A DNA stretch of 55,526 nucleotides from contig CADCHE010000008.1 of assembly GCA_902801205.1 (NCBI GenBank), positions 99,480 through 155,005 of the forward strand, read 5' to 3'. Under the pieces are notes generated by a model. That model was not told the DNA's origin. It did no database searches and saw nothing but the letters and a program-made list of their open reading frames with translations. Origin of the DNA: an uncultured Bacteroidia bacterium (lineage in GTDB: Bacteria > Bacteroidota > Bacteroidia > Bacteroidales > UBA932). This document shows, one piece after another, positions 3,533 through 54,096 of this stretch. Each line of letters begins with the position of its first letter. Within the stretch, counting starts at the first letter, position 1. A program made the position numbers and the translations under genes.

Positions 3533-6500
3533 ATGAGGAAATTGCTGCTTGCCTTCCTGTTTCTTTTTACAACCGGTCTTTTCGCTTTCGATCTGAAAGC
3601 GCAGCCGGGGGGAGGCTTACAAATCCAAGGAAAAGTCGTCGATGAGTCCGGAGCGCCGATCCCGGGCGTCTCCATCTATCCGCGCGGCGTCCCCGAGAAG
3701 GGAACGGCCACGCTGGAGGACGGATCGTTCCGGCTGACCGTCGAATCCGGAGACGTCATGCTCGTCTTCTCCGCCATCGGCTACGTGGCCCGCGACGTGA
3801 AGGCGTCGCAGGCGAAACGCGTCGTCCTCGCGGAGGATCACGAAACCCTCAAGGACGCCGTCGTCACCGGTATCTTCACCCGAAAGAAGGATTCCTTCAC
3901 GGGCGCCGTCCAGACCATCACCTCGGACGACCTCAAGCGGGTGGGCAACGCCAACGTCATCGAGAGTCTCAAAAACATCGATCCTTCGCTGCTCGTCATG
4001 GAGAACCTGCAGGCCGGTTCGAACCCGAACGTCATGGCTTCCATGCAGTTGCGCGGCGCCTCGTCGCTCCAGATGGAGACGTCCGCCCTCAAGAGCAACT
4101 TCGTCAATGACGCGAACATGCCGCTCTTCATCCTCGACGGTTTCGAGACCAGCATCGAGAAGATCACCGACATGGACATGAACCGCGTCCAGAGCATCAC
4201 GATCCTCAAGGACGCCTCGGCGAAAGCCATCTACGGTTCGAAGGGTGCGAACGGCGTCATCGTCGTCGAGACGAAAGCCCTGACCGGCGAACGCACGCTC
4301 GTGACCTACACCGGCAGCGTCACGCTGGAAACGCCGGACCTTTCTTCCTACAACCTCTGCAACGCCTATGAGAAGCTCCAGGTGGAGTGGCGGGAAGGCC
4401 GTTATTTCGACAACTCTTCAGAAACGACCGCCGACGGAGCCTCCCTCTACTACGAGCGGCTGAAGCGCGCCCTGGAAGGGGAGAGCACCTACTGGCTCAG
4501 CAAGCCGGTCCGCATGGGTGTCGGCCAGAAGCATTCCCTTTCGGTGGAAATGGGTGACAAAGCCCTCAAGAGCCTGATCACCTTCGCCTACAACGACGTC
4601 CAGGGTGCGATGAAAGGCTCCTGGCGCAACATCGTCTCCGGCGACGCCAACGTGTCCTACCGCACGGGCAAGTGGGTCTTCCGGAACATCATGAGCGTCG
4701 GTTCGATGAAGGGGCAGGAATCGCCCTGGGGTTCGTTCGCCGACTATGCGGCGGCCAATCCCTACCATTCTCCCTACGACGAGAACGGCAACCTGAAGAA
4801 GCTGCTCGTCTCCGGCAATTACGGATCCTACATCCAGAACAAGGTCGCGAACCCGATGTGGAACGCCACCGTCGGTTCGAAGGAAACGACGCAGTACCTC
4901 GACTTCACCGACAATTTCTATGCGGAATACTACGTGATCCCGTCCGTCAAACTGGTCGGCCGTCTGGGGGTGGACACGAAGAAGACCCAGGCGGACGATT
5001 TCCGCCCGGCGGAGCATACGGACTTCATGTCGGACACCATCGACCGTCCCGACGACTTCATCAACCGCGGCTCCTACACGCTGACGACCGGAAACTACCT
5101 TACGTATTCCGGCGACGCCTCCGCCCAGTTCAACCAGACCTTCGGCGGCCTGCACGACGTGTTCGCCACGGCCCAGTACAATATTTCGGAAACGCGCTAT
5201 GACGAGGTGACGAACGTGGCGCGCGGATTCCCGAACAGCAACATGAACAACTACACCCTCGCACGGCAGTATGCGACCGCTTCCACCCCGACGGGCGGCG
5301 ACGGGATCACCCGCTCCCTGGGCGCGCTGCTGACGACGGGCTATTCCTATGACAACCGCTACATGGCCGACGCCACCATCAAGGGAAGCGCGGCCTCCGT
5401 GTTCGGCACGGACCGTCACTGGGGCATCTTCTGGAGCGGCGGCCTCGCGTGGAACCTGCACAACGAGCAATTCCTGTCCGGGGCGAAAAACTGGCTGCAG
5501 CAATTCAAGCTGCGCGCCTCCGTCGGTTCTTCCGGCAACCAGAACTTCGCCTCCAACGTCACACTGCCCGTGTACCGCTACTTCACGTCGAGCTATTACG
5601 GCGGCTTCACCGGCGCGGAGTTGGTGAACATGGAGAATCCTTTCCTCCGCTGGGAGGAGAAGATGGACTACAATGTCGGCGTGGATTTCCGCACCAAGCG
5701 GGTGAACCTCGTCGTGGACGCCTACATCGCCGACACGCGCAACCTGGTCTTCGCACGGAGCCTGGTGCCTTCCACCGGTTTCGCCACCATGGTCGACAAC
5801 ATGGGCCAGGTCCGCAACCGGGGCGTGGAGGTATCCCTGAGCTATACCCTCCTGCAGCGCGGCTCGTCCTTCCTGACGGTATTCGGGAAAGCGGCCTTCA
5901 ACGACAACCGCCTGCACCGGATTTCCGAGGCTCTGGACGCGTATAACAAGCAGCAGACGGCTGCGGCGGAGGCGGTCAATTCTCCGCTCCCGGTCATCCA
6001 GTACTATCCGGGCATGCCGCTGCATTCGATCTGGGCGGTCGAATCGCTCGGCATCGACTCCCGTACGGGCAGCGAGGTGTACATCGACCGGAACGGGGAG
6101 ATGACGACGGAGTGGAACTCCGCCGACCTGAAGAACTTCGGCACCTCCGACCCGGTCGTCAACGGGAATTTCGGCGTCAGCGGTGAACTCCGCGGCTTCG
6201 GGTTCAATGCCGTGATGACCTTCCGCGCCGGCGGAAAACTGTACAATACGACGCTGCTCAACAAGGTGGAAAATGTCAATCTCGAATACAACGTCGACCG
6301 GCGCGTGTTCGAAGGACGCTGGTTCGAACCCGGCCAGGTGACCCCCTTCCGGGGTATCTCGGGCATCCTTTACGATAGTGATACGGGAGCGTATCACCAT
6401 TCCGTCACGCGCGCGACCTCCCGGTTCATCCAGCGCAACGACGTGCTGAACGTCTCGTCGCTCTCCCTCTATTACGAATTCCCGTACGCCTGGGTGCAGC

Positions 6501-6634
6501 GCCTGAAGATGAACCGCCTGCGCGCCACCCTGTACGCCAACGATGTCTTCACGTTCTCCTCGATCCGCATCGAGCGCGGAACGTCCTATCCCTACGCGCG
6601 TTCGTTCTCCTTCTCCCTGACCGCAACCTTCTAA
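3533..6634 (+). CDS. SusC/RagA-family TonB-dependent outer-membrane transporter
   Basis: A 1033-residue protein with signal peptide (1-23), a carboxypeptidase-D regulatory-like beta-sandwich (about 28-110, GKVVDESGAPIPGVSI), a plug domain (about 115-245 with PLFILDGFE and SITILKDASAKAIYGSKGANGVI, the standard SusC plug signature) and a 22-strand barrel ending in aromatic Phe (FSLTATF). It should import an oligomeric nutrient across the outer membrane with energy from TonB. The susD gene starts 6 bp after its stop, so the two form the usual transporter/lid pair. Substrate cannot be read from the sequence; the metalloprotease genes downstream favour peptides or glycoproteins over plain glycans. 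Confidence 0.95.
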   Translation: MRKLLLAFLFLFTTGLFAFDLKAQPGGGLQIQGKVVDESGAPIPGVSIYPRGVPEKGTATLEDGSFRLTVESGDVMLVFSAIGYVARDVKASQAKRVVLAEDHETLKDAVVTGIFTRKKDSFTGAVQTITSDDLKRVGNANVIESLKNIDPSLLVMENLQAGSNPNVMASMQLRGASSLQMETSALKSNFVNDANMPLFILDGFETSIEKITDMDMNRVQSITILKDASAKAIYGSKGANGVIVVETKALTGERTLVTYTGSVTLETPDLSSYNLCNAYEKLQVEWREGRYFDNSSETTADGASLYYERLKRALEGESTYWLSKPVRMGVGQKHSLSVEMGDKALKSLITFAYNDVQGAMKGSWRNIVSGDANVSYRTGKWVFRNIMSVGSMKGQESPWGSFADYAAANPYHSPYDENGNLKKLLVSGNYGSYIQNKVANPMWNATVGSKETTQYLDFTDNFYAEYYVIPSVKLVGRLGVDTKKTQADDFRPAEHTDFMSDTIDRPDDFINRGSYTLTTGNYLTYSGDASAQFNQTFGGLHDVFATAQYNISETRYDEVTNVARGFPNSNMNNYTLARQYATASTPTGGDGITRSLGALLTTGYSYDNRYMADATIKGSAASVFGTDRHWGIFWSGGLAWNLHNEQFLSGAKNWLQQFKLRASVGSSGNQNFASNVTLPVYRYFTSSYYGGFTGAELVNMENPFLRWEEKMDYNVGVDFRTKRVNLVVDAYIADTRNLVFARSLVPSTGFATMVDNMGQVRNRGVEVSLSYTLLQRGSSFLTVFGKAAFNDNRLHRISEALDAYNKQQTAAAEAVNSPLPVIQYYPGMPLHSIWAVESLGIDSRTGSEVYIDRNGEMTTEWNSADLKNFGTSDPVVNGNFGVSGELRGFGFNAVMTFRAGGKLYNTTLLNKVENVNLEYNVDRRVFEGRWFEPGQVTPFRGISGILYDSDTGAYHHSVTRATSRFIQRNDVLNVSSLSLYYEFPYAWVQRLKMNRLRATLYANDVFTFSSIRIERGTSYPYARSFSFSLTATF

Positions 6635-6640
6635 AGACGC

Positions 6641-8194
6641 ATGCACATGAAAATGAAAAGATATATTGCCGTTCCGGTCATCACCTTGTTGCTGTCCCTG
6701 CCCGCCTTTGTCGCCTGCGACGGCTGGCTGGAGGCGACTTCCAGTTCCCAGGTTTCCGACAAGAAACTCTTCAGTTCCCGTTCCGGCTTCCACGAGGCGC
6801 TTTCGGGTGTGTACCTGACGATGGCGAAGACGGAAGCTTACGGGGGCGATTATACGTGGCGTATCAACGACTTGATCTGTGTTCCGTACGCTTCGCAGTC
6901 GAACACGTTCTTCCGCGCGTTCCAACAGCAGAACTATACCGCTTCCGTCGCCGTCCCTTATCTGGAACAGATGTGGCAGGGGGGCTACAACATCATCGCC
7001 AATGCCAACAAGGTGCTGCAGGAGCTGGAGAACGGCCGCAGTGTCGTGACGGACGATTATGAGTATAACCTGATCAAGGGCGAACTTCTGGGCATCCGCG
7101 CCTACGTCCATTTCGACCTGCTGCGGATGTTCGGTCCGGCGACGTGGGCGGGCGACAATGCGTCCAAACTCGTCGTTCCGTATGTCCGTTCCTACGGCTC
7201 CGATCCGGAGGTGCAGCGGACCGCCGCCGAGACGGCCGTCCTGTTGCTTGAGGATATCCAGGAGGCCCTGAAGTGCCTGGAGGCGGATCCCGTGCGGGGC
7301 GATGTTCCCGAGCGGTTCGAAACGACGATCAACACGGACGGCTACTGGACGGACCGCCAGCGCCATCTGAATTATTATGCCGTGGAGGCGCTGGCTGCCC
7401 GGGTAGCGATGTGGGCAGGGAGCTTTGCACAGGCTTATTCGCTTGCGGAAGATGTGGCCCGGAATGCCGTCGCCGACGGCCTGGTTTCCTGGCTCGATGC
7501 GGAGGCGCTTGTTCAGGAAAGCACCGCTGACTTTCGCGACTGGACCTTCTCGACCGAGCATCTGTTCTCGCTGGATGTCACCAACCTGTACGACAACTGC
7601 AAGGACTATTTCTTCCCGTCTTCCAACGCCATGAGTTCCGGATATATCCTGCCTCGAGAGATCGTCGAGTCCCTTTTCTCCTATTTCCCGGAAGCGGGGT
7701 GGTATGACTTGAATGAGGACGTGCGCGGCCCCGCCTGCCAGATGTCCTATCTTTCCGAAGGCTATACCGAAGGCAAGTTCTACGGGTCTTCCGGTTACAA
7801 GACCCATCTACGCTGCCGCATGCCGATGATCCGCCTCTCGGAAATGTATTATATCATGGCGGAGGTCCGCGCCGCGTCCTTTGATTACGGCGGCGCTGCC
7901 GCGCTGCTCGACGAGGTCCGCTCTCACCGCGGCATCTCGCGGTCCCTGACCGAGGGGCCCATCGCCCGGATCGACCTCTCCCTGCCGTCGGAGTTCGTGC
8001 AGGCAAACTTTCTGGATGTACTGGATGACGAGTACCTGACAGAATTCATCGGGGAAGGGCAGTACTACCCTTACCTCCGCCGGATGTGGGGCCAGCGCCG
8101 GCATGCTGTCTCATTCGGCACCCTTGGCCCCCTTAACAAAGTCTATCCTTATCCGAACGAAGAGATCGTTTATGGCCGCAAACAAGAATTATGA
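6641..8194 (+). CDS. SusD/RagB-family nutrient-binding lipoprotein
   Basis: A 517-residue surface lipoprotein with signal peptide and lipobox (AFVAC, Cys26). The N-terminal half has the TPR-like helices typical of SusD (for example the run around residues 105-175 with GELLGIRAYVHFDLLRMFG, a strongly conserved SusD segment), and the C-terminal half has the expected RLSEMYYIMAE motif. It forms the hinged lid on the SusC barrel. In-frame ATGs at 6641, 6647 and 6653 are all possible; the choice does not affect the mature protein. Its stop overlaps the start of the next gene (ATGA), so translation is probably coupled. Confidence 0.95.
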   Translation: MHMKMKRYIAVPVITLLLSLPAFVACDGWLEATSSSQVSDKKLFSSRSGFHEALSGVYLTMAKTEAYGGDYTWRINDLICVPYASQSNTFFRAFQQQNYTASVAVPYLEQMWQGGYNIIANANKVLQELENGRSVVTDDYEYNLIKGELLGIRAYVHFDLLRMFGPATWAGDNASKLVVPYVRSYGSDPEVQRTAAETAVLLLEDIQEALKCLEADPVRGDVPERFETTINTDGYWTDRQRHLNYYAVEALAARVAMWAGSFAQAYSLAEDVARNAVADGLVSWLDAEALVQESTADFRDWTFSTEHLFSLDVTNLYDNCKDYFFPSSNAMSSGYILPREIVESLFSYFPEAGWYDLNEDVRGPACQMSYLSEGYTEGKFYGSSGYKTHLRCRMPMIRLSEMYYIMAEVRAASFDYGGAAALLDEVRSHRGISRSLTEGPIARIDLSLPSEFVQANFLDVLDDEYLTEFIGEGQYYPYLRRMWGQRRHAVSFGTLGPLNKVYPYPNEEIVYGRKQEL

Positions 8195-8994
8195 TGAAGA
8201 TGAGACAATATATGGCCGGCCTCCTGCTGGCAGGCGCCTTCCTGGCGGCATCTTGCTCCAAGAGCGAGATTGCGCCGTATGCGCTCGAAGACAGCGCAGT
8301 AATCTTCAGTTCTCCGAGCATCTTCTTCTCGTTGAAGGGTATGTCGGAGGAAACACGGGACCTGCGGGTTCCCGTGCTGCTGGTGGGTGTACCGGCCGAC
8401 TATGACCGGGAGATCGCCGTCGAGGCCGTTGATTCCACGGCGGTCCTCGGACGCGACTACACGATCCTTTCGAAAACCCTTCCCGCCGGCGCCGTCCGCG
8501 GGGAGATCGTCCTGCGGGTGAACCGTCTGACCGGCGGCGTGGAGTCGCGCGCCACCCGGTTCCGCATCGTCGCCAACGAGTTCTTCCGGGCGGGCCCGCC
8601 CAAGAGCGCAGCCGCAGATATCGAATGGTCCGAGGCGTATGTCCGTCCGCAAATGGAAGTCTGGCGGTACTGGTATACCTTCCTGTCGCACGGATACAGC
8701 AAGGAATACCACCGGCTGCTCATCGAGTATTTCGGCGAGGAAATCGAAAAGGTAACGAACAACCAGTCTTATGCAAGGGCGGACGAGACGCTGGTCTACA
8801 AACTCCCGTCCTGGTGGTACAACGCCACCCGCGAGTTCCGCGACTTCGTCCGCAACCACGACCAGATGAATCCGGGCGATCCCTGGCGCCACAGCGACGA
8901 CTACGAGCAGTACAGCGGCTACGGAGTCGCCCGCGGGAGCGGTTTCAAGCCCGAGACCCTTCCGACGATTTTCGAAACCCTCAATGTGTTGTAG
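8191..8994 (+). CDS. DUF4843 domain-containing lipoprotein
   Basis: A 267-residue lipoprotein (lipobox LAASC, Cys22) whose body matches the DUF4843 pattern: a Calx-beta-like N-terminal half (roughly 35-135, containing DYTILSKTLPAG and a TRFRIVANEFF end) and a helical, Trp-rich C-terminal half. DUF4843 proteins are commonly found right after SusD and before a PKD-like lipoprotein, exactly as here, and are thought to be accessory surface proteins of the nutrient-capture complex. Start overlaps the susD stop by four bases. Molecular role unknown. Confidence 0.85.
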   Translation: MMKMRQYMAGLLLAGAFLAASCSKSEIAPYALEDSAVIFSSPSIFFSLKGMSEETRDLRVPVLLVGVPADYDREIAVEAVDSTAVLGRDYTILSKTLPAGAVRGEIVLRVNRLTGGVESRATRFRIVANEFFRAGPPKSAAADIEWSEAYVRPQMEVWRYWYTFLSHGYSKEYHRLLIEYFGEEIEKVTNNQSYARADETLVYKLPSWWYNATREFRDFVRNHDQMNPGDPWRHSDDYEQYSGYGVARGSGFKPETLPTIFETLNVL

Positions 8995-8996
8995 CG

Positions 8997-10553
8997 ATGA
9001 TGAAGAGAAAAGCAACAGGTTTGATCCTCCTTTCGGCCCTCTGCCTGCTGGCTGGTTCCTGTTACAAGGACCTGAGCACGCCGGCCGACCATGAGATCCC
9101 GGACATCGTCGTCACCGGGTTGGCGCCGGAGATCCATGTGACTTACGGCGAGGAGCTCGACATTACCGTCCAGGTGAGCCAGGAAGGACGGACGGCATCC
9201 GACTTCGACCTGGTCTGGTCCATCGACCTGAACCCGGACCGCCAGGCCGACCGGATCGAAGAACTGGAAACCGGTCCCACCCTCCACTACAAGGTGGCCA
9301 ACCGGCCTGCGGACTCACCCTATATCCTCCGGCTCGACGTCACCGACCCCCGGACGGGGCTGACGAAAGTCGTCTACTCGAAGCTGTACGTGGCCTCCTC
9401 CCTGGGCGAAGGCTTGCTGGTCGCCTATACCCGCGACGGCGGGAAGACCTCCGAGTTCGATTTCTTCGCGAACGAGTATGTGACCTATGGTTACGAAAGT
9501 GAGGAGACCCTCTTTACACGGGAGATTTACCGGCTGGCCAACGAGAACACTTTCGAGGGGAAGGTGCTGTCGATGGCAGCGATCGTCGATTCGGACGGTG
9601 CTTCATATAACGAAATGCGGATCCTGGCCGGGACGGATGACCATCTCTTCGCGCTGGATCCCCTGACCTTCAAACAGACGGCCGCCGATGCGGCGCTGTT
9701 CAACTCCAGCATCCAGTCGGAGTTCGGGACGACCGCGATTTTCAATTTCGCTTCCTATCAGACCGGCGCCTTGATCGGCGGCCGCCTCTTCGTGATGCCG
9801 ACCCTGATGGACCGCGTGTTCAGCGCCGCCTCCTTCCCGTTGGAGCCCCGCAATGTCATGCATGCCCACAATTCCGCCTGGGCCGCGTTCCAGGGGGGTA
9901 ATTTCGCGTTTTTCGACGAGGTGCATGCCCGGTTCTTCCTCATCTACGGCTGGTCGGCCCACCAGGGGGCGTTCGAGGAGATTTCCTCTGCCCCCCTGGG
10001 TTTCTCCGTGCAGGGAGCAAAGTGCATCGGCACCGGCGAGATGCGAGGCAAGTCCCTGGCATTCCTGTTGTGCGATGCAACGGGAACCTACCATGTCTGC
10101 ATCATCGGAGACATGGATACGGCTCCGCGGATGAGTCCCGTCACCATCCCCCAGACGGCGTTGGACGAGGCGGTTTCCGTCGCTTTCTGCGACAACTGCG
10201 ACCTGATGTATTACGCCACGCCGGACGAGTTGTATGTCACCTTGCTCGCGGCGGGCCGCGTCAGCAACCGCAAGGTCAACTGGGCGCCCGACTCCCCGGA
10301 CGAGCGGATCACTTCCATCCGCCAGTACACGCAGGGCTTCAAGGGGACGCACAACTATGCAATCGACTGGTATCCCTACCCGATCGCGACCAACCGGCTC
10401 CAGATGATCATCACGACATACAATGACAAGACCGGGGAAGGGAAGGTCTACCTGCGCCCCTTCAACGTGAGTACGGGCCTCTTCACCGCGAAAGACAACG
10501 GCACATACGGCGGATTCGGAGAGATCACCGCCCTTTGTCCCACCCTCAGATAG
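8997..10553 (+). CDS. PKD-like family surface lipoprotein
   Basis: A 518-residue lipoprotein from ATG 8997 (MMKRK; lipobox LAGSC, Cys22). Residues about 35-130 form a PKD-like beta-sandwich (ITVQVSQEG, LRLDVTDPRTGL); the remainder has repeated beta strands resembling a propeller and matches the PKD_2 type lipoproteins encoded next to DUF4843 genes. The reading frame is open much further upstream within the preceding gene, but the signal peptide fixes the start here, 2 bp after the upstream stop. Probable role: additional ligand-binding or scaffolding component on the cell surface. Confidence 0.85.
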   Translation: MMKRKATGLILLSALCLLAGSCYKDLSTPADHEIPDIVVTGLAPEIHVTYGEELDITVQVSQEGRTASDFDLVWSIDLNPDRQADRIEELETGPTLHYKVANRPADSPYILRLDVTDPRTGLTKVVYSKLYVASSLGEGLLVAYTRDGGKTSEFDFFANEYVTYGYESEETLFTREIYRLANENTFEGKVLSMAAIVDSDGASYNEMRILAGTDDHLFALDPLTFKQTAADAALFNSSIQSEFGTTAIFNFASYQTGALIGGRLFVMPTLMDRVFSAASFPLEPRNVMHAHNSAWAAFQGGNFAFFDEVHARFFLIYGWSAHQGAFEEISSAPLGFSVQGAKCIGTGEMRGKSLAFLLCDATGTYHVCIIGDMDTAPRMSPVTIPQTALDEAVSVAFCDNCDLMYYATPDELYVTLLAAGRVSNRKVNWAPDSPDERITSIRQYTQGFKGTHNYAIDWYPYPIATNRLQMIITTYNDKTGEGKVYLRPFNVSTGLFTAKDNGTYGGFGEITALCPTLR

Positions 10554-10562
10554 AAAAACGGA

Positions 10563-13157
10563 ATGAACAAGAAAGTACTCGTTACCCTGCTGGCCGGCTG
10601 CCTCCTCCTGGGCGCCGCGGCGCCCCTTTCCGAGGCGCGCATCGTCTGGCGTTTCGGCAAGAAGAAGGCGGCTACGGAACAGCCGAAAGACACCGTCAAG
10701 AAGAAAACCCCTTACGAAAAGCTGTTCGAGAAGGGGGACAGCCTGCACCGCGGGCTGCTGAACGTGCATTTCTGCAAGGGGAAAGTGTATTTCGAAGTGC
10801 CTGACAGCCTGCTGGGCCGGACCTTCATCCTGGGCTCCACCGTCAAGGCGACGAGCGACAACGCCAACGGCGTGGTCGGATCCAAGGACGACCTGATTCC
10901 GTTCACCTTCACGAAGACCGACAGTTCGGTGTTCCTGCGCGAAGTCGGTTTCGACGTCGCGACCGACGATCCGGACATCCGCTCGGCCCTCTCCAAGAGC
11001 CATATCGGCAGCGTGCAGCGCAAGTTCAAGGTGGCGGCCCAGTCGCCGGACGGCCATTCCGTCATCGACGTGACGGACTGGTTCCTCGCCGATGAGGACG
11101 CGACACGCCCGCTGCTCTCGCTGTCGACCTATGCCTCGTCCTATAAGCGCACCCAGAACTACAAGCGCGACCTTTCCTATATCGAAGGCGTGAAGTCCTT
11201 CGCGGACAACCTCTCCGTGACGGCCTGCATGTCCTATACCTACTCGCTGGCGGACCTGCAGTCCGGGAAGGAGGCCGTCAAGGACAAGCCGTTCACGGCC
11301 CTGGTCACTCGCTCCATCCTCCTGCTGCCCGAAGATATCTACCATCCCCGGAAAGCCGACCCGCGGATCAACTTCTTCTTCACCGGACGTGTGAAGATGG
11401 GAAGCGGTTCCGAAGGCTCCCGCGCAGAGTATTTCGTCAACCGCTGGCGCTTGGAACCCTCCGACACGGCGGCCTTCCGCCGCGGCGAGAAGGTGGAGCC
11501 GGTCCGCCCCATCGTCTACTATATCGACAGCGATTTCCCGCAGTGGTGGAAACCTTACATCTTCGAGGCGGTGGAGCAGTGGAACGAAGTCTTCGAGGCC
11601 ATCGGCTTCAAGCACGCCGTCCGCGCCCTGCCTTTCCCGGAGGATGATCCTTCCTTCGACCCGGACAACATCCGTTACAGCTGCATCCGGTACGCCCCGA
11701 TCGGCATCCGCAACGCGATGGGCCCCTCCTGGGTCGACCCGCGGAGCGGCGAGATCATCAATGCGTCGGTATATGTGTACCACGACGTGATCAAGCTCCT
11801 GTCCACCTGGATGTTCGCGCAGACGGCCCAGGCCGACCCCGACGTGCGTACGGCGGACATCCCGCGCGAACTGCTGGGCGATGCCCTGATGTACGTGATC
11901 AAGCATGAGGTCGGGCATACCCTCGGCCTGATGCACAACATGAGCGGCTCTTCCGTGATCCCCACGGAGATGCTCCGCGACCCTGCCTTCACCCGCGAGA
12001 ACGGCACGACGACCTCTATCATGGACTACGCCCGTTTCAACTACGTGGCGCAGCCGGGCGACAAGGAGCGCGGCGTGAAACTGACGCCGCCGCGTTTCGG
12101 GAAGAACGACTACTGGGCGATCCGCTGGGGCTATACGCCCGTCTTCGATGCCGCGTCCTTCGAACGGGAGGCCGAGATCACGGCGGGCTGGATCACCGAC
12201 TCGCTGAAGGTGGCGCCTTTCTACCGCTACGGCAAGCAGCAGATCTATGGAGACGGTTCCCCGTTCTTCGACCCGCGCAACCAGACGGAAGACCTGGGTG
12301 ACGACGTGATCGCTTCGACGAAATACGGCGTGTCGAACCTCAAGTACATCCTGTCCCACTACCTGGACTGGATCGACGACGCGGCCGATCCGGAATACGA
12401 GATCCGTACGGAGCTCTTCTCCACGATCCTGAACCAGTATTTCCGCTACTGCCTGCATGTGCGCAACAACGTGGCCGGCCTGTACCGGAACGAGGTGATC
12501 GCCGGGGACGGGAACCCGCGCTACGAGAACGTGCCCGGTGCGAAGCAGAAAGCGGCGCTGAACTACCTGTTCGAACTGTTCGAGGATACGGACTGGCTCG
12601 ACGACCCGGCCGTGCTGGGACGTCTTCCGATCATCGGCAGCCCGGCGGGTTCCGTGGACCGGGCGCTGCTCCGCTATATCTTCACGATTCCTTTCCAGGA
12701 AGCCTACATCGATGGCGTGTCTACGCACGAATTCTCTTCGCGGGAGGCGCTGGATGCCATCTTCGACTATGCCTTCAAGCCTTCCCGCCAGGGCCGCGCG
12801 CTGACGGAGCGGCAGCGTCTCTTCCAGCGGGAATACGTCTCCTTCATGATGCAGAACGGCGCGTTCAAGACGCCCCCTTCTCCGCGCGCCGCCGCTTTCG
12901 CGGATCCGCACGCGGGCTGCTCCTTCGCCAGCGGCGAGGACCCGTTCTCGGCCGGCTCGTTCGTCTATGACCCGGTCAGCGGCTTCGAGTGGATGCCCCG
13001 GACCATCATGGCCATCGGCAACATCACGCAGGGAACCGTGTACGGCGAGATGATGCGGGCCTACGACGTCATGAAAGCCGCCAAGGCCTCAGCCCGTCCG
13101 GACGACAAGGCACATTACGAACTGCTGATGGGCAAGATCGCCTATTCCCTCAAATAA
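10563..13157 (+). CDS. Secreted zinc-dependent metalloprotease (DUF5117/DUF5118/zincin)
   Basis: An 864-residue exported protein with signal peptide (1-25), a short basic linker, a DUF5118/DUF5117-like N-terminal region (about 45-370) and a zincin domain. The metzincin motif HEVGHTLGLMH is complete: His448, Glu449, His452 and His458, and the Met-turn candidate is SIMDY a little over 30 residues later. It should hydrolyse peptide bonds in the periplasm or at the surface. It is the fifth gene of the Sus-like operon, 9 bp after the previous stop, and is followed 9 bp later by a paralogue with a destroyed active site. The gene neighbourhood suggests trimming of captured peptides or glycoproteins. 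Confidence 0.92.
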   Translation: MNKKVLVTLLAGCLLLGAAAPLSEARIVWRFGKKKAATEQPKDTVKKKTPYEKLFEKGDSLHRGLLNVHFCKGKVYFEVPDSLLGRTFILGSTVKATSDNANGVVGSKDDLIPFTFTKTDSSVFLREVGFDVATDDPDIRSALSKSHIGSVQRKFKVAAQSPDGHSVIDVTDWFLADEDATRPLLSLSTYASSYKRTQNYKRDLSYIEGVKSFADNLSVTACMSYTYSLADLQSGKEAVKDKPFTALVTRSILLLPEDIYHPRKADPRINFFFTGRVKMGSGSEGSRAEYFVNRWRLEPSDTAAFRRGEKVEPVRPIVYYIDSDFPQWWKPYIFEAVEQWNEVFEAIGFKHAVRALPFPEDDPSFDPDNIRYSCIRYAPIGIRNAMGPSWVDPRSGEIINASVYVYHDVIKLLSTWMFAQTAQADPDVRTADIPRELLGDALMYVIKHEVGHTLGLMHNMSGSSVIPTEMLRDPAFTRENGTTTSIMDYARFNYVAQPGDKERGVKLTPPRFGKNDYWAIRWGYTPVFDAASFEREAEITAGWITDSLKVAPFYRYGKQQIYGDGSPFFDPRNQTEDLGDDVIASTKYGVSNLKYILSHYLDWIDDAADPEYEIRTELFSTILNQYFRYCLHVRNNVAGLYRNEVIAGDGNPRYENVPGAKQKAALNYLFELFEDTDWLDDPAVLGRLPIIGSPAGSVDRALLRYIFTIPFQEAYIDGVSTHEFSSREALDAIFDYAFKPSRQGRALTERQRLFQREYVSFMMQNGAFKTPPSPRAAAFADPHAGCSFASGEDPFSAGSFVYDPVSGFEWMPRTIMAIGNITQGTVYGEMMRAYDVMKAAKASARPDDKAHYELLMGKIAYSLK

Positions 13158-13166
13158 GGCTGCCGT

Positions 13167-15668
13167 ATGAGAAGATTTACCGCATATCGCCTTTGCAGCC
13201 TCCTGCTTCTCGGTGCCCTGTTTTTCCCGGCACCGGACGCCCTCGCTGCCTGGCCCTTCCGCAAGAAGGCCGCCCCGGCGGAGGAAAAGAAAGAGACGCC
13301 CAAACCGACGCCTTATCAGAAATTCTTGAAAAAGAAGGGGTTGAAGTCGGTCACCGGTACGATGAAACTGTATACGGACGGCAAGGATGTCTGGTTGGAA
13401 GTGCCCGACTCACTGACCGGCCGCAAGGTGCTGCTGTCCACGGTACTCCGCGACAGCTCCGACCCCTGGGTCGAGGTGGGGCAGCGGGTGAACACGGACA
13501 GGATCCTCCTGATCGGCCGGACGGATTCGCTGCTGGTCCTTTCCGAACCGGTGCGCCTGCCTGAATCGGATGACCCCGTCGAGCGGGCGACGCTCCGCGC
13601 CGGCGTGGCGCCGGCGGTGCGCTATGCCTTCCCGATCATGACCCGGTCGGCGGATTCCGCGGCGGTGCTCGTGAAAGCGACCAAACTGTTCGACCCGTCG
13701 AACAAGGATGTCATCCAGATGCGCGGCTTCCTGTACGGTGATTCGCGGGGGCTCATGGACGGTACCCTGAAATCTGAACTGTCCCTTCCGAGCGTTCCTG
13801 TGACCTATGGGAAAGCCCATGTCGGCCTCTCGCGGGAACTGACGTTCGAAGGCATCTGGGGCAATTACAACCGCTCTTCGATCACCGCCAACCACAAGAG
13901 CGAGAAAGCGCGGATCACCGGCGACTTCGTCACCCTCCTCTCTTTGGTTCCGGACCGGGAAATCCCTGTCCGAAAGGCAGATGCGCGTGTAGGCGTCCGC
14001 CGTCAGGCGTTCCGTTCCTTCTCCTCCGACAAGGGGGTGAAGACGGAGTATGACGCGGTCCGCTGGAACCTGGCGCCCGGCGACCGGCTGACCGTCTACA
14101 TCGACACCCTGTTCTCCGCTTCCCGGCAGGAGGCCATCCGCCGCGGCGTCGAAGCCTGGAACGAAGGCTTCCGTGCCGCCGGACTCGGCGACGTCGTCCG
14201 GGCGGTGCCTTATCCGGCTGATTCCGCCTTCTGCGCCGACGATCCGTTCTTGTGCAAGGTCGTTTCCACGCATTGCGACATCGACCTCCTGCAGTCGTCT
14301 ACGACCGGCAATGCCCTGACCGGCGGCGTGCTGGGTGCGACCATCACCGTCCCCCAGGGCTACCTGACGCAGCTCTGGCGCGAATATGCCTTCACCATCA
14401 GCGAGGCGGACGACCGCTTCCGCACGCTTTTCCCGTCGGAAGACGCGCTCTGCGACATCCTCTGCGCCGCCGTGATGCGGCAGTTCGGAACGGTGCTCGG
14501 CCTCTCGACGAACCTGGCCGGCAGCGCCGCCTACAGTCCTGCGCAGCTGCGTGATCCCGCTTTCACGGCTACCCACGGCATCACGGCTTCCGTGATGGAC
14601 CAGGGGGCGATGTTCAATACCCTGGCCCGTCCGGGCGACCGCGAACGCGGGGTGCCGACCATCAGCAACCGGATCGGTGCCTACGATAAGTTCGCCGTGA
14701 ACTGGCTGTACCGGGTCTTCCCGGAAGGCACCGATGCTGCTGTGGCGTTGCGGGAAATGGTCGATGCCCGCGAGGGCGATCCGGAATACCTGTATCTCCC
14801 GGAGCAGGGGAACGGCCTGCTCGTGCGTGATTACCGCGCCCGCCGCGGCGACCTGGGCAACGACCCGGTGGAAGAATACAACCGCATCGTGTCGACGCTG
14901 AAGTACGTCGCTTCGCATGCCAAGCCCTGGGTCAGCGACCCGCGGCTGTCGGAAACTCCTGATTCCTACCTGTTCTACGAGTGGCTCTGGCTGTCTTTCA
15001 GCGATGCCACGCAACTGCTGACGACCCGCTTGGGCGGCCTCCGGACGAATGTGGTGGGGACCGGCCCGAAGTTCACCCCGGTTCCCAAGGTGGTCCAGAA
15101 AGAATACCTGAAGACCATCTTCTCCGGCTGGCGCGACCTCGGATGGATCGAGGCGGACCGCGAATTCCTGCACCTTTCCGGCCCGTACCGTACGGCGCAG
15201 GACATGAACTACCGGAACATGGGCGCGCTTTCCGGCGTGACCTACCGCCTTCCGTCGGTCATCCTCGCCTGGAAGGAAGCCGGCAGCGACTATTCCCCTT
15301 CGGAGTACATGGACGACGTGGAGGCGCAGCTGTTCCGCCAGGCCCGTTCCGGCCGGCTCGCCCCGCAGGAAGACATGTCTCTCGGCATCTACATGATGTA
15401 CCTGATCAACAGTTCTCCGGTGCTGAAGGCGGCGTACACCCGCGCGGCGGACCCGCTGGGCGGCAGGGAGCTGGCCCGGCTGGAAGAAGTATTCACGCCG
15501 GTAGAGGGCATCCCCGTCGTCTATGTCGAAGAACTTGACCTGCTCTGCAAGCAGCATCTGGAGAAGGTCCGTTCCTGGCTGCGGCAGGGGAGCGCGCGTG
15601 CAACCGATCCGGACGCCAAGGCGCAGATCGCCTTCCTGCTGCATGTCGCGGATACGGCTTTGGAATGA
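13167..15668 (+). CDS. Catalytically dead zincin paralogue (pseudoprotease)
   Basis: An 833-residue exported paralogue of the preceding protease; both begin with a signal peptide, a Lys-rich linker and TPYxKxL, and align through the zincin domain (LRDPAFT...HG, RPGDRERGV are shared). At the active-site helix the motif reads RQFGTVLGLST: the three histidines are replaced by Arg438, Thr442 and Thr448, and the catalytic Glu by Gln439, while Gly445-Leu446 of the motif remain. The Met-turn Met is kept (SVMDQ). The frame is intact over the full length, so this is a maintained protein rather than a decaying gene. Likely roles are substrate binding, inhibition or partnering of the active enzyme; which one cannot be told from sequence. 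Confidence 0.88.
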   Translation: MRRFTAYRLCSLLLLGALFFPAPDALAAWPFRKKAAPAEEKKETPKPTPYQKFLKKKGLKSVTGTMKLYTDGKDVWLEVPDSLTGRKVLLSTVLRDSSDPWVEVGQRVNTDRILLIGRTDSLLVLSEPVRLPESDDPVERATLRAGVAPAVRYAFPIMTRSADSAAVLVKATKLFDPSNKDVIQMRGFLYGDSRGLMDGTLKSELSLPSVPVTYGKAHVGLSRELTFEGIWGNYNRSSITANHKSEKARITGDFVTLLSLVPDREIPVRKADARVGVRRQAFRSFSSDKGVKTEYDAVRWNLAPGDRLTVYIDTLFSASRQEAIRRGVEAWNEGFRAAGLGDVVRAVPYPADSAFCADDPFLCKVVSTHCDIDLLQSSTTGNALTGGVLGATITVPQGYLTQLWREYAFTISEADDRFRTLFPSEDALCDILCAAVMRQFGTVLGLSTNLAGSAAYSPAQLRDPAFTATHGITASVMDQGAMFNTLARPGDRERGVPTISNRIGAYDKFAVNWLYRVFPEGTDAAVALREMVDAREGDPEYLYLPEQGNGLLVRDYRARRGDLGNDPVEEYNRIVSTLKYVASHAKPWVSDPRLSETPDSYLFYEWLWLSFSDATQLLTTRLGGLRTNVVGTGPKFTPVPKVVQKEYLKTIFSGWRDLGWIEADREFLHLSGPYRTAQDMNYRNMGALSGVTYRLPSVILAWKEAGSDYSPSEYMDDVEAQLFRQARSGRLAPQEDMSLGIYMMYLINSSPVLKAAYTRAADPLGGRELARLEEVFTPVEGIPVVYVEELDLLCKQHLEKVRSWLRQGSARATDPDAKAQIAFLLHVADTALE

Positions 15669-15712
15669 ATTCATCAACTCAATGTATATATAACAACTTT
15701 ATTTTCAGTATT

Positions 15713-17794
15713 ATGAAAAAATCCATCATGATTCTTGCGGCGCTTGCCCTGCTGGGCTCCGCCGCTTGCACCAAGACCGAAATCAAGGAGGTCGAGGTGG
15801 AGAAGGTAGTCGAGAAGGTCGTCGACCTGCTCTCGCTCACCGCTACGCAGCTCCAGGTGGGGAATGAAGGCGTCGTTCAGCCGATCGCCTTCACGACCGA
15901 GGACGCCTGGACGATCACGAGCGACCAGAACTGGGTTACGTTCGACAAGGCTTCCGGCGCCGCCGGTTCCTCCACCGTCAACATGACGGTCGCGAAGAAT
16001 CCCGACTTCGCCACCCGCACCGCCCGCGTTACGCTGAGCGTCACCCATGAGAATGCGACAAAGACGACGGTCTTCACCGTCGTCCAGTCCGAGGAACAGG
16101 TGTTCTCCACGTCGACGGAGTACCGGATCGACTTCGAAGAGCAGGACATTGCCGTTGACTTCAACACCAACCTTACCCCTGAGGTGAAGGTCGTCGAAGG
16201 TGACTGGCTTTCCGTCACCCGCACCAAGGCGGCTCCCGTCGACGGCAAGATCATCGTCCATGCGACCAAGAACGACGGAGCGGAGTCCCGTACCGGCAGC
16301 TTCACCATCGCGGCTGGCAGCATCATCCAGACTTATGTCGTCGTCCAGGCTTCCCAGTATGCTTCTGCCTCCGAGGCCACGGCGCTTTATCTGGGCAATC
16401 TGCAGGATATGTATGATGACGAGAACTATGTCTTCAAGGACATCAACCAGTTCGTCATCCAGTTCGCCGCCGCTGACGGCGATGTGACCCTGGTGCTGAA
16501 CGGCGGCCCCGAGCTTGCCGATGCCACGAAGATCCCCGCGGGCGAATACAAGATGGACGAGACCGGCCAGTATGCCGCCGGAACCTTCTCCGTCCAGGGC
16601 AGGAATGAGAAATACTACACCACGGTGACGGCCGGCGGCAAGGACATGACCCTGATCGACGGTACGGTGAACGTCTCCCAGTCCGGTGACACCTACACGG
16701 TGATCGCCACCCTGGTCGACGAATTCGGCACCGAGCACATGTACAGCTACAAAGGTCAGCTCGCCATCACGGACGACTCCTTCGGTGCCCAGGTGACCGA
16801 GGCGGCCGACAAGGGCCTGTACAACACCTACTTCGCAACGAAGGCTGACGAGGTGAAGTTGAGCCTCCGCATCAACAAGGCTCCGGAAGGAACCGAACAC
16901 TGGCTCAGCTATATCATTTTCACGATGTTCCGTGCCCATGCTTCCGCGGACCTTCCGCTCGGCAAACTGACGTATGAAGTCCCCGAGCAGGATTCCTCGT
17001 TGGGCTACGCCAACGGCATCACCCAGGGCAAGCCCGGCACCTTCTACATCTCCTCCGCCGGCAAGAAGGATTGGGAAGACGGCATTTCCTACCGCCCCAA
17101 GGACGGGACGACCCCGACCCTCGAGATCACCAAGCAGGACGATGGCCGTTATACCGTGAAGCTCGACGCGACCATCTCCCGCATCCTGACCACCTATGAT
17201 GACGATTCTAACGCCATCGAGACCGAGACGGAGTCCTTCCCGTACAAGGCGGTCTTCAAGGACCTCACCTTTGACCAGCTGTCAGAGCCCGACCAGTTCC
17301 CTTGCCCTGACGGCGACCGTGCCTTCTCTTTTGTCAATATCCAGAACAACTACATGCCGATGTGGTTCGGTGACAGGTACGATACGGGCTGCCATGTCTT
17401 CCTGTTCGGCTGGAATTTCGTCGACAGTGAGTATAATGTTTACTTGGCCATCAATGTCAAGGACGATGATTGGGTATTCGAAAAGAATTTTGCCAAACGT
17501 TTCTGCAACACGCCGTTCAATCTGGGAACCTTCAACTTCTCCTGGACGCCGGCGGAGAACACGTTGATTCCTGTCAGGTACGGGAACACGATCTACCACG
17601 CCATCGAGAACAGATACACCGGCCATATCTACCAGATCGTCGGCGGTTCCATCACCATGGACGCCACTTCCATCAAGTATGACCTGACGGCCACTTACGA
17701 AGGGAAGACGTTCAAGTTCACAGGCGGTCACCCGGCGACGCTGTACTACATCCGTGACCTTCATACCAGTGCGTTGAACCTCGACACGCAGTAG
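15713..17794 (+). CDS. BACON-domain lipoprotein, likely last gene of Sus-like operon
   Basis: A 693-residue lipoprotein from ATG 15713 (lipobox GSAAC, Cys19) with a charged EVEVEKVVEKVVD spacer and two successive BACON-type domains (about 37-130 and 135-225; AWTITSDQNWVTF and GDWLSVTR are the characteristic Trp motifs). The remaining about 470 residues are beta-rich and not assigned. BACON domains occur in Bacteroidetes surface proteins that bind glycans or mucin or act as spacers from the membrane. It lies 44 bp after the pseudoprotease and is closed by a strong terminator, so it probably belongs to the same transcript. Confidence 0.85.
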   Translation: MKKSIMILAALALLGSAACTKTEIKEVEVEKVVEKVVDLLSLTATQLQVGNEGVVQPIAFTTEDAWTITSDQNWVTFDKASGAAGSSTVNMTVAKNPDFATRTARVTLSVTHENATKTTVFTVVQSEEQVFSTSTEYRIDFEEQDIAVDFNTNLTPEVKVVEGDWLSVTRTKAAPVDGKIIVHATKNDGAESRTGSFTIAAGSIIQTYVVVQASQYASASEATALYLGNLQDMYDDENYVFKDINQFVIQFAAADGDVTLVLNGGPELADATKIPAGEYKMDETGQYAAGTFSVQGRNEKYYTTVTAGGKDMTLIDGTVNVSQSGDTYTVIATLVDEFGTEHMYSYKGQLAITDDSFGAQVTEAADKGLYNTYFATKADEVKLSLRINKAPEGTEHWLSYIIFTMFRAHASADLPLGKLTYEVPEQDSSLGYANGITQGKPGTFYISSAGKKDWEDGISYRPKDGTTPTLEITKQDDGRYTVKLDATISRILTTYDDDSNAIETETESFPYKAVFKDLTFDQLSEPDQFPCPDGDRAFSFVNIQNNYMPMWFGDRYDTGCHVFLFGWNFVDSEYNVYLAINVKDDDWVFEKNFAKRFCNTPFNLGTFNFSWTPAENTLIPVRYGNTIYHAIENRYTGHIYQIVGGSITMDATSIKYDLTATYEGKTFKFTGGHPATLYYIRDLHTSALNLDTQ

Positions 17795-17817
17795 CGTTTA
17801 TCGGATTACTGATGCAG

Positions 17818-17850
17818 GGGAGGCGGCATTCTTGCCGTCTCCCTTTATTT
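17818..17850 (+). terminator. Intrinsic terminator ending the Sus-like locus
   Basis: Ten-base-pair stem GGGAGGCGGC/GCCGTCTCCC (17818-17827 with 17834-17843, one G-T pair), six-base loop, then TTTATTTTAT. It runs straight into the promoter of the next gene. Confidence 0.85.
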
Positions 17851-17865
17851 TATGGAAATAATCAC

Positions 17866-17873
17866 TATCTTTG
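17866..17873 (+). promoter_or_regulatory. -7 element 4 nt before ATG (leaderless candidate)
   Basis: Perfect TATCTTTG, a TTTA at 17844 with an 18-bp spacer as a possible -33 box, and only four bases (TTTC) before the ATG at 17878. Transcription would be expected to start at or within a base or two of the start codon. Confidence 0.7.
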
Positions 17874-17877
17874 TTTC

Positions 17878-20679
17878 ATGCGCAAATGGCTTCCCATCCT
17901 TGTTTTGCTGCTGTCTGCGGCTGCCTGTCCGGGGCTTCGTGCCCAGCAGAAGGATTCCCTTGCGACGGTGGCCGGTGTCGTGAACTACAAGGCAGGGCGC
18001 GTTCCTCGCGACCTCCCGGTTCATTCCGCCGTCGTCCGCCTGTATACGGGCGGGGATTCCTCTTTCGTCCAGACCGGCCCGCAGGGCGAGTTCACGTTCC
18101 GGAAAGTCCGTCCGGGAACCATTACCCTGAAGGTCTCCCGGATGGGATTCCATCCGCTCGAGGAAACCTATGAGGTGGAGGCCGGAATGAACCTGCTCTA
18201 CTTGTCCCTGCAGCAGAAAACCGAGAAGCTCGATGCGGCGAAAGTGGAGGCGAAGGTCGATCCGGTCAAGATCAAAGGGGACACCGTCGTCTACACGGCC
18301 GCCGCCGTGAACACCCTCCAGGGGGAGAATGCGATGCAGATCCTCGAGCAGATGCCCGGCGTGACAGTCAGCGGGGGAAAGATCCAGGTGTTCGGCGAGG
18401 ACATCAAGCGCACCTACGTGGGCGGGAAACTCATCTTCGGAAACGACCCGAAGGCAGCTCTGAACGCTATCCTTGCCGAAGAAGTCCGGCAGATCAAAGT
18501 CTACGACGAAGACAGCAAGGAGGACCTGAAGACGGGCGCGAAGTCTGCCCGCAAGGAGCGGGTCCTGGACATCATCCCCACGCACGAGATCAAGATGGCG
18601 GTCGACGCCCATGTGCTGGCCGGCGCTGGTACCGACCTCGATCCGGATGCGGACGGTCGGCTGCAGTCGCGCTATGCCGCCGGCGTCACCGGAAATTTCT
18701 TCTCGGAGAAATTCCTGTTGTTCGGCAATGTGTACGGCAACAACGTCGGCCGCTACTCCAATCGCCTGGATGACATCAAGACCGTAACGCCGGCGATGAA
18801 TTCCTATTCCGAACTCAGCAGTGCGCAAGTCGGCGTCGAGCGCTACTGGAAAGACCGTTTCCTGGGCAACAGCCTCAAATTCTCCTATGGATTCAGCAAG
18901 GATTACGGACGGACCTCTTCCCGCGAGCGGCGTGACTATACCGCTTCGGAGGGGATTCCGGCAATGGTATACGAGTCTGCTTCCGCGTCCTCCCATGTGA
19001 CCGGGAAGCATTCCGTCCGGACCTCCGCCGACCTGAATCTCGAGAAACTGGGCCGTATCTCCTTCCTGCTGAACGGGGAAGCGTCGGACCCGACCGAAAA
19101 CGCCTGGTCGTCGGTCCGGAGCGAGGTTGCCTCCCGCGTGACGGAGCAGAACGAGCGGACGAACTCCTCCACCCAGGACCGGAGTATCAGCGGGGACTTC
19201 CGCTGGTCCGATTCGGGCGGTCATGCGTTGATGCCCTCTTTCTCGACCAGCTTCTGGTATGGAAATGACAGCGGAAACAGCTTGCAGGTCGATACGTCGG
19301 CCTCCAGCACGACCCGGCGCATCCTGTCGGGCAATGCGGACGGGACGAACGGATCGCTCACCGTTGCTCCGGGCTTGACCTGGCGCTTCGTCAATACGGA
19401 GAAACTGACGGGCTCCCTGACCCTTGCGTATGACTTTTCCGCCAAGCACAATGTGAACCGTCGGCTGGTCTACGACATGCTGGACGGGGTGCCGGTGGTG
19501 AACGTCGCCAACACACAGGACTTTACGTATGACGAGCAGGTCCACAGAGGAAAGGCGACGCTGGCGTTCAATTTCGGGAAGTCCTCCGTGCGTGCGGATG
19601 CCTGGTACGGCCGGAGCATCCAGCGCGACCGCGAACGCTTGCCTTCCGATGCGGACCTGACCTACCGTTTTCCGGTCCTTTTTTCCAGCATCTCCTTCCG
19701 GCTCCTGGACTGGAACGGCAATTACCAGCTGGTCGAAACCGTCCCTTCCGTGGATCAGCTGCGCGACCGGATCGATGACCGCAACCTCCTGATGCTCCGC
19801 ACCGGCAATCCGGACCTCAAGCCCTCCCGCACGCATATTGCCCTCCTGCACCGCTCTTTCAAGTTGGATTCCGGCAAGAAGGGCTCCATCAGTCTCGCCG
19901 TCAGCGGCAACCTGACGCAGCGTTCCGTCGCCTCCCGGATGCTCTATTACGACCGCGCATCCCTGTGGGGAAGTTATCACGTCCCGGCCGGAACCACGCT
20001 GTATACGTATGACAATGTGGACGGCCTCCGCTCCTGCTACGCATCGCTGGGCTATAACCGGCGTCTCCAGAAAATCAAGTCCACCCTGTACGTAGCGCTT
20101 TCGGACCGCCTTGCGCAGATGCCGCAGTACCAAGGCGCGACGCTGGCGACGTTGTATGAACATGTGCCCGACCTGTCCGTCAATGCCTACCTGCGCCCCA
20201 CCCGCTGGTTGAACGGAGTTCTGCAGGCGGGGGTGCAGCAGTCACGCTCCTGGAACGATTCCGGCCAGGAACTGGCTCGTCAGCAGTTGTATACCTTCAA
20301 GGAGAATTTCAAGGTGACCTTCCTCAAGAATGCCTTCGTCGGAAGTTCCTATTCATACAGCGGCTACCGCTACGCCTCCTCCCGGCAGCCGGACGTCGAC
20401 ATGCACATGCTCGGCGCGATGGTCGGCTATTCCTTCCTGAAAGGCGCCCTCAATGTCGTCCTGACGGGATCCAACCTGCTGGACAGCGCCCCCGCCTATT
20501 CGACGGAGACGACGGCCAACTATTTCCAGCAGACCTGGAAAACCTATTATGGGCGCAGCGTGATGCTCAACGTCTCCTTCCGCTTCAACCGGACGGGCAA
20601 GAACGTCAAGTTCGGCGGCCGGCTCAATGACGGCTCCGACGTCAACGGGCAGACCATCATCTACGACACCGGCCTCTAG
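17878..20679 (+). CDS. TonB-dependent-receptor-like outer-membrane beta-barrel protein
   Basis: A 933-residue outer-membrane protein: signal peptide (1-23, ending RAQ), carboxypeptidase-regulatory-like domain (about 30-110), a plug-like segment (about 115-225: GDTVVYTAAAV, MQILEQMPGVTV, FGNDPKAALNAI, IKVYDEDSKEDLKTG) and a large barrel ending with a typical beta strand region. This is the OMP_b-brl_3 type rather than SusC, and no SusD follows. A frame-extending codon upstream is ignored because the signal peptide and promoter place the start at 17878. It is paralogous to 23328-26159. Substrate unknown; such proteins often serve peptides, siderophores or as surface receptors. Confidence 0.9.
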   Translation: MRKWLPILVLLLSAAACPGLRAQQKDSLATVAGVVNYKAGRVPRDLPVHSAVVRLYTGGDSSFVQTGPQGEFTFRKVRPGTITLKVSRMGFHPLEETYEVEAGMNLLYLSLQQKTEKLDAAKVEAKVDPVKIKGDTVVYTAAAVNTLQGENAMQILEQMPGVTVSGGKIQVFGEDIKRTYVGGKLIFGNDPKAALNAILAEEVRQIKVYDEDSKEDLKTGAKSARKERVLDIIPTHEIKMAVDAHVLAGAGTDLDPDADGRLQSRYAAGVTGNFFSEKFLLFGNVYGNNVGRYSNRLDDIKTVTPAMNSYSELSSAQVGVERYWKDRFLGNSLKFSYGFSKDYGRTSSRERRDYTASEGIPAMVYESASASSHVTGKHSVRTSADLNLEKLGRISFLLNGEASDPTENAWSSVRSEVASRVTEQNERTNSSTQDRSISGDFRWSDSGGHALMPSFSTSFWYGNDSGNSLQVDTSASSTTRRILSGNADGTNGSLTVAPGLTWRFVNTEKLTGSLTLAYDFSAKHNVNRRLVYDMLDGVPVVNVANTQDFTYDEQVHRGKATLAFNFGKSSVRADAWYGRSIQRDRERLPSDADLTYRFPVLFSSISFRLLDWNGNYQLVETVPSVDQLRDRIDDRNLLMLRTGNPDLKPSRTHIALLHRSFKLDSGKKGSISLAVSGNLTQRSVASRMLYYDRASLWGSYHVPAGTTLYTYDNVDGLRSCYASLGYNRRLQKIKSTLYVALSDRLAQMPQYQGATLATLYEHVPDLSVNAYLRPTRWLNGVLQAGVQQSRSWNDSGQELARQQLYTFKENFKVTFLKNAFVGSSYSYSGYRYASSRQPDVDMHMLGAMVGYSFLKGALNVVLTGSNLLDSAPAYSTETTANYFQQTWKTYYGRSVMLNVSFRFNRTGKNVKFGGRLNDGSDVNGQTIIYDTGL

Positions 20680-44428: not shown

Positions 44429-44433
44429 CGGAT

Positions 44434-48909
<4,476 letters not shown>

Positions 48910-48915
48910 TGCGCC

Positions 48916-53610: not shown

Positions 53611-53727
53611 CAGATAGTATTTACTTAAAATATTAATTATTAATCACTTGTGAAATATCGCATTTCGCTTGTAAAGGGTGTGCTATACCCTCGTGGACAC
53701 AAAACCGACCTAAAATAACAGCAGTGT
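53611..53727. other. Regulatory gap upstream of glnK-amtB
   Basis: 117 bp, AT-rich at first, with ATTAAT repeated around a T (53630-53642) and a small hairpin AGGGT/ACCCT (53675-53691). No TAnnTTTG and no TGGCAC-N5-TTGCA sigma54 site was seen, although separate nitrogen control of glnK-amtB would be expected to act here. Confidence 0.4.
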
Positions 53728-54075: not shown

Positions 54076-54096
54076 AACCTCTTAAACGTATATAAA

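Follow-up and report, generated by a model that had tools for sequence, protein, structure and literature searches.

Mitochondrial processing peptidase, a member of family M16B, combines an active zinc peptidase subunit with a homologue that lacks the zinc motif, and in bacteria M16B pairs are encoded by a two-gene operon (review PMC11266112). The same review describes the FtsHi proteins of chloroplasts, which are inactive M41 homologues kept beside active metallopeptidase members. In Bacteroidota, two further systems are relevant: the DUF5117/DUF4953 zinc-dependent metalloproteases (PF16313, PF17148 and PF17162) and the RagAB/SusCD import systems.

The locus described here lies in a stretch of 55,526 nucleotides from an uncultured Bacteroidia bacterium (hereafter the window). 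Like the M16B pairs, it encodes an active and an inactive homologous subunit side by side. Both of its proteins contain all three domains of the DUF5117/DUF4953 family, but the second copy lacks the zinc-binding and catalytic residues; intact relatives, in contrast to the window pair, are often solitary, as in records of Segatella copri and Bacteroides finegoldii. M16 is an HxxEH family with another fold, and no M16 domain was found in either window protein (Pfam, E up to 0.01), so that neither is assigned to that family. Moreover, the M16B heterodimer is physically proven, whereas the window pair is known from sequence. FtsHi are membrane AAA proteins of plants, whereas the window pair consists of tandem exported zincins. 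Genes for SusC and SusD share the gene run of the pair, which suggests a link between the protease and peptide import. The mitochondrial processing peptidase and the bacterial M16B pairs, although of a different family, are the nearest working analogy.

The literature searched, which is not all that is in print, made no mention of DUF5117 or DUF4953, and among the titles and beginnings of abstracts listed by a wider search, none describes this pair. PMC7618045 gave no hit for BT2261, BT2262, BT2263, peptidase, protease or DUF4843, and the words Bacteroid and zincin are absent from PMC11266112.

The tandem genes and their operon

The protease genes and the genes adjacent to them in the window are as follows:

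3533 to 6634, plus strand: SusC/RagA-type TonB-dependent transporter, in the same gene run as the pair (Pfam Plug and TonB-dependent barrel)
6641 to 8194, plus strand: SusD-like lipoprotein (Pfam SusD-like_3 and SusD_RagB)
8191 to 8994, plus strand: DUF4843 protein (Pfam DUF4843)
8982 to 10553, plus strand: PKD_2-like protein (31.6 bits, below the Pfam cut-off of 39.2)
10563 to 13157, plus strand: predicted intact DUF5118-DUF5117-DUF4953 zinc protease of 864 aa, with a signal-like N terminus and HEVGHTLGLMH at 448-458
13158 to 13166, plus strand: intergenic gap of 9 nt between the active and the dead gene
13167 to 15668, plus strand: catalytically dead paralogue of 833 aa with the same three domains, in which RQFGTVLGLST replaces the zinc motif
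15665 to 17794, plus strand: BACON-domain protein, downstream of the pair (Pfam)

The original prediction of two paralogues 9 bp apart, the first with its zinc motif intact and the second open over 833 codons but devoid of every metal ligand and of the catalytic Glu, was confirmed. The HExxHxxGxxH motif is present in the first protein and absent from the second, in which R438, Q439, T442 and T448 align with H448, E449, H452 and H458 of the active copy. Both proteins belong to the DUF5118/DUF5117/DUF4953 (Met-zincin) family, with scores above the Pfam gathering scores for DUF4953 (285.8 bits in the active and 155.5 in the dead protein), DUF5117 (140.7 and 47.2) and DUF5118 (50.4 and 32.7). They share about 29% identity, and the duplication that gave rise to them is therefore presumed to be old. 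A third, intact family member (L055) is located on the same contig about 65 kb upstream of the pair, and has no family neighbour.

No family match was obtained from NCBIfam at E up to 0.01. A sequence search of the PDB with the active protein returned a 65-residue match to EcxA (E 0.0011) as well as ten proteasome chains (E 0.47-0.55), and the same search with the dead protein returned no match up to E 1. AlphaFold2 models of the single chains, built on 7-row alignments (the window proteins and L034-L036), gave a pLDDT of 52.5 for the dead and 44.1 for the active protein, too low for a fold search to be based on them.

The two window genes have a GC3 of 0.86 (active) and 0.81 (dead), and long minus-strand ORFs overlap them; an open frame alone is therefore little proof of a gene here and needs comparison. 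The conservation of its homologues and of gene order, together with dN/dS, indicates that the dead ORF is a real gene.

Pfam searches agreed with the earlier placement of the pair in a Sus-like operon, as the SusC and SusD genes were found in the same gene run. The start of the PKD_2-like gene at 8982 was chosen by us; the mechanical ORF begins at 8625. The mechanical start of the BACON ORF overlaps the stop of the dead gene, and a lipoprotein-like start (MKKSIMIL) is found 16 codons inward. On the 3′ side of the BACON gene lies a gene for an OMP_b-brl_3 outer-membrane beta-barrel with a carboxypeptidase-regulatory-like domain (17812-20679). Elsewhere in the window, a minus-strand ORF (27877-29517) matches the N-terminal and 6-hairpin domains of GH78 alpha-rhamnosidase, and a plus-strand run of nitrogen-assimilation genes (42254-55314, Pfam) encodes glutamine synthetase III, the large and small subunits of glutamate synthase, CTP synthase, a glutamine amidotransferase-like protein and an ammonium transporter.

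Relatives of the pair and their neighbours

Searches with the dead protein gave any match in 44 of 101 genomes of the genus and in 146 of 299 genomes of the family. A further search, with an alignment of 31 dead copies (A1), covered 393 genomes of the order, 296 of the phylum and three other families (38, 101 and 5 genomes), with two or three candidates scored per genome at the order and phylum levels. Intact relatives made up most of the matches listed in these searches. A search of genome contigs found three loci, all close relatives, and the plasmid collection gave three distant records, each with an intact motif, two of which are annotated as a solitary member beside SusC/SusD; the third is without annotation at the matching region. 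No relatives were found in viral contigs searched with alignments A2 and A1.

Two sets of loci were examined. The first comprised 100 fetched stretches plus the window, and because many stretches were picked for a suspected pair or a high dead-profile score, no rates can be read from it. It contained 170 members, of which 166 of at least 500 aa were aligned and four shorter pieces left out; 101 of the aligned members keep the H, E, H and H of the site and 65 do not. The second set comprised 60 stretches, 57 of them from listed, previously unexamined matches that were taken before their motif was known, while the other three were flanks with no family member. It held 58 members, 57 intact and one dead. 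This single dead copy (L259:5947-8256, G665) is very divergent and adjoins an active copy of another subfamily.

It had been proposed to ask whether the dead copies always sit beside an intact paralogue. Among the 66 found, 63 do, and none was shown to be solitary. In the first set, 62 of the 65 dead copies have an intact member adjoining on the same strand. The other three lie at contig ends: L083 adjoins a truncated relative at the contig end that scores as active type, L087 is itself cut by the contig end, and L098 is 174 bp from it. The 62 pairs come from 54 genomes, including that of the window. The pair is thus conserved well beyond this genome: the first set places it in six families and at least 54 genomes, and the second adds one more family (L259), which makes seven.

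Within the pairs, the dead gene follows the active one in 57 of 62 and precedes it in five (L145, L191, L208, L209 and L210). The two genes are separated by a median of 9 nt; 60 of the 62 gaps fall between -14 and 28 nt, and in 15 pairs the genes overlap by 4 or 1 nt. The outliers are L041 (-160 nt), probably an effect of start codon choice, and L213 (766 nt), probably because its active ORF is broken up. A fused two-domain ORF was not seen among the ORFs listed. That a dead copy is found only beside an intact one suggests that the two work as one unit.

The reverse dependence does not hold. The 101 intact members of the first set include 62 beside a dead copy, six in both-intact pairs, 32 alone and one (L218) beside pieces; of the 57 in the second set, 56 have no family neighbour and one adjoins the dead L259. 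Altogether 88 of 158 intact copies have no relative beside them, and for 76 of these 88 the available sequence extends 600 nt or more to either side (27 in the first and 49 in the second set). Both-active tandem pairs were found at four loci (L146, L203, L211 and L218); the last looks both-active in that the upstream piece beside its intact member carries HEIGHVLGLSH. In L213 and L218, intact-motif genes are broken by stops in draft genomes, possibly through sequencing errors or as true breaks.

These counts bear on the proposal of an inhibitory or chaperone role, in which the dead copy would restrain its sister or help it to fold, shielding the cell until the protease is in place. The tight co-occurrence, the close spacing and the overlaps of the genes would fit such a role, but the 88 intact relatives seen alone do without such a neighbour and the five upstream dead genes indicate that the order is not fixed, and we consider it improbable.

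The gene context was compared across the same 62 pair loci. SusC and SusD genes of the window type lie upstream in 38 of them, accompanied by DUF4843 and PKD_2 genes in 20; a BACON gene is downstream in 15, and SusC or SusD occurs anywhere in the fetched stretch in 49. In 10 loci, no homologue of any of these five window genes was seen. The counts of loci with these genes are underestimates, since contigs are cut and genes have diverged. The association with SusC and SusD, and a fold retained without catalysis, would also be expected if the dead copy were an independent peptide- or protein-binding receptor or carrier of the import operon, co-expressed with the protease but making no contact with it. 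Against this, solitary active members also adjoin SusC/SusD genes in the Segatella copri and Bacteroides finegoldii records, so that the operon needs no dead copy, and a dead copy as the sole family member of such an operon was not encountered. The old cleft, moreover, is not conserved across the dead group (see below), and this reading is in our judgement unlikely. A free binding protein, an inhibitor or a chaperone are all less likely than a dedicated non-catalytic partner.

Residues lost and kept, and selection on the dead copies

The four site columns show 49 residue combinations among the 65 aligned dead copies. None of the three zinc histidines is kept in 57 of them and one is kept in eight; no copy with more than one was present among those examined. 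A dead member with such a site cannot be a zinc protease. The Glu of HExxH is kept in 18 of the 65, notably in the REMGF group of genus g11. The losses go far beyond these columns. Where the dead gene is the downstream one (57 pairs), the dead copies vary freely at many positions at which the active copies are invariant, for example most of 384-390, H407, Y489, A490 and R491, whereas G455, N459 and N493 are kept in all 57 dead copies and L454, S463 and D488 in 53. The Met of the Met-turn, which was expected to be kept, is present in the window dead copy (Met477), but as a trait of the group it does not hold: at position Met487, 29 of the 57 have Met and 22 have Thr. The claim that the surrounding fold is kept stands in so far as the three Pfam domains match, both in the window and among 31 dead copies scanned (E up to 0.01; DUF4953 and DUF5117 in 31, DUF5118 in 30), but not in the sense that only the four site residues were exchanged. 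We read the dead group as having lost the catalytic constraint and kept the scaffold. As many active-type residues of the cleft are lost, ordinary substrate binding in the old active site is argued against.

In a further reading, the dead copy would still be catalytic, through a rebuilt active site or a different metal centre. The retained Glu of the 18 copies is in its favour, and so are the conservation of the helix (0.78), loop (0.82) and Met-turn (0.85) compared with 0.69 for the whole protein, although these values come from 84 pooled close comparisons that are not independent, and the four site columns, which are above the clade average in four of eleven clades. In the other seven clades they are below it; the many residue combinations at the site do not fit a new centre, and conservation specific to the dead group is limited to four columns, a Gly, two Leu and an Ala. 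We regard a rebuilt site as very unlikely; perhaps the site region has been reused in some clades.

The possibility that homologues of the second gene are frequently frameshifted had been raised as an objection to its retention. No internal stop was found in any of the 66 dead homologues; four are truncated where the contig ends (L046, L087, L091 and L192), and one complete ORF is short, with 633 aa (L050). dN/dS was calculated (NG86) for those dead pairs retained by a word-sharing filter, and likewise for the active partners, the values being read by hand, and only comparisons with a dead dS up to 1.1 were used for the summary, larger values being saturated. The dead copies gave 0.05-0.46 with a median of 0.15 (26 comparisons), well below 1, as the original prediction required; in the comparison with the highest value, L201/L206, the active partners gave 0.42. 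The window dead gene compared with L082, L084, L085 and L086 gave 0.18-0.23 at a dS of 1.28-1.57.

The dead copies are separated by distances about 1.9 times as large as those between their active partners (median), as might be seen if the dead gene were a decaying pseudogene still open by chance. Given its low dN/dS, the unbroken frames and its retention across seven families, decay is hardly credible. Sequencing error was also considered as a cause of the dead state and rejected, as the same state recurs in many genomes. By purifying selection in the absence of the catalytic residues, the second gene qualifies as a retained pseudoenzyme, and its tie to the intact sister is well supported by these comparisons; the functions first proposed for it, as a chaperone, an inhibitor or a substrate-binding partner, are candidates, with ordinary substrate binding in the old cleft argued against.

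Origin of the dead copies and a model of the pair

A mixture-model tree of 88 rows was built with the active-site columns removed. It needs four state changes, and three to four over the bootstrap trees, which puts the number of inactivations at three or more, probably four. The main dead clade comprises 27 rows including the window gene, with support of 91/86, below the strongest class. Separate origins are indicated for the upstream dead genes of f87 (L145, L208 and L210), for L191 in f142, which is outside the order, and for L259 in f106; the last is probably a separate inactivation, although its placement is unsure because of an end branch of 3.4. One ancient loss behind all dead copies was rejected (single dead clade, p-AU 0.0001), as was the union of the main dead clade and f87 in one clade (p-AU 3e-5), with the caveat that the groups tested were defined after a quick tree had been seen.

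In the both-active pairs L146 and L211, the upstream intact genes form the sister group of the f87 dead genes (100/99), and the downstream genes of these loci show the same grouping (100/99). Thus in f87 the pair preceded the loss of the site in one member, and this is the clearest case of a loss inside an existing pair.

Co-evolution of the two genes, proposed as a check on their partnership, was borne out: distances between dead copies and those between active copies correlate with r=0.885 over 61 pairs and 0.943 over 17 f113 pairs, and in neither test did any of 2000 permutations reach the observed value. The nearest pair was identical by both genes in 12 of the 17 f113 pairs and different in five. 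Ten within-genome comparisons, which are not independent, gave a correlation of 0.72 (p 0.018). Co-divergence points to a lasting partnership rather than to contact, since co-inheritance in an operon alone gives it too.

A simple lipobox pattern is absent from 55 of the 62 active and 55 of the 62 dead proteins of the pairs and present in seven of each, so that both are likely to be soluble exported proteins. Exported without a lipid anchor, the active and the dead protein would probably meet in the periplasm.

The explanation we favour, and consider probable, is an enzyme/pseudoenzyme pair derived from an old tandem duplication, in which the dead copy is a non-catalytic subunit of its active sister in the periplasm. 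An exported DUF5117/DUF4953 zinc protease would have been duplicated in tandem into a two-gene unit. One member would have retained the HExxHxxGxxH site, while in the other zinc binding and a large part of the catalytic cleft disappeared, the three-domain fold being retained under purifying selection. The dead subunit may aid assembly or stability, or may serve as a gate or receptor presenting peptides from the neighbouring SusC/SusD. The likeliest arrangement would be a hetero-oligomer derived from an ancestral homo-oligomer, with one subunit freed from catalysis, which may trim SusCD-imported peptides in the periplasm; contact, place and substrate are inferred here from the gene comparisons. 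A point against it is the large number of intact members that do without a dead partner.

The dead member may be annotated as a zinc protease, since it shares the Pfam domains of one. The family offers repeated conversions of a protease to a pseudoprotease, with the intact sister and the both-active pairs available for comparison. More tentatively, and short of an even chance, there may be a whole class of SusCD-linked periplasmic proteases that are active/pseudo hetero-oligomers, in which the inactive subunit arose repeatedly (at least three times, and at either gene position) from both-active tandem pairs; if so, the family would provide a natural series from a homomeric protease to an enzyme/pseudoenzyme machine. 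The pair suggests that import through SusCD in Bacteroidales is linked to a proteolytic step, on which there is little in the literature searched.
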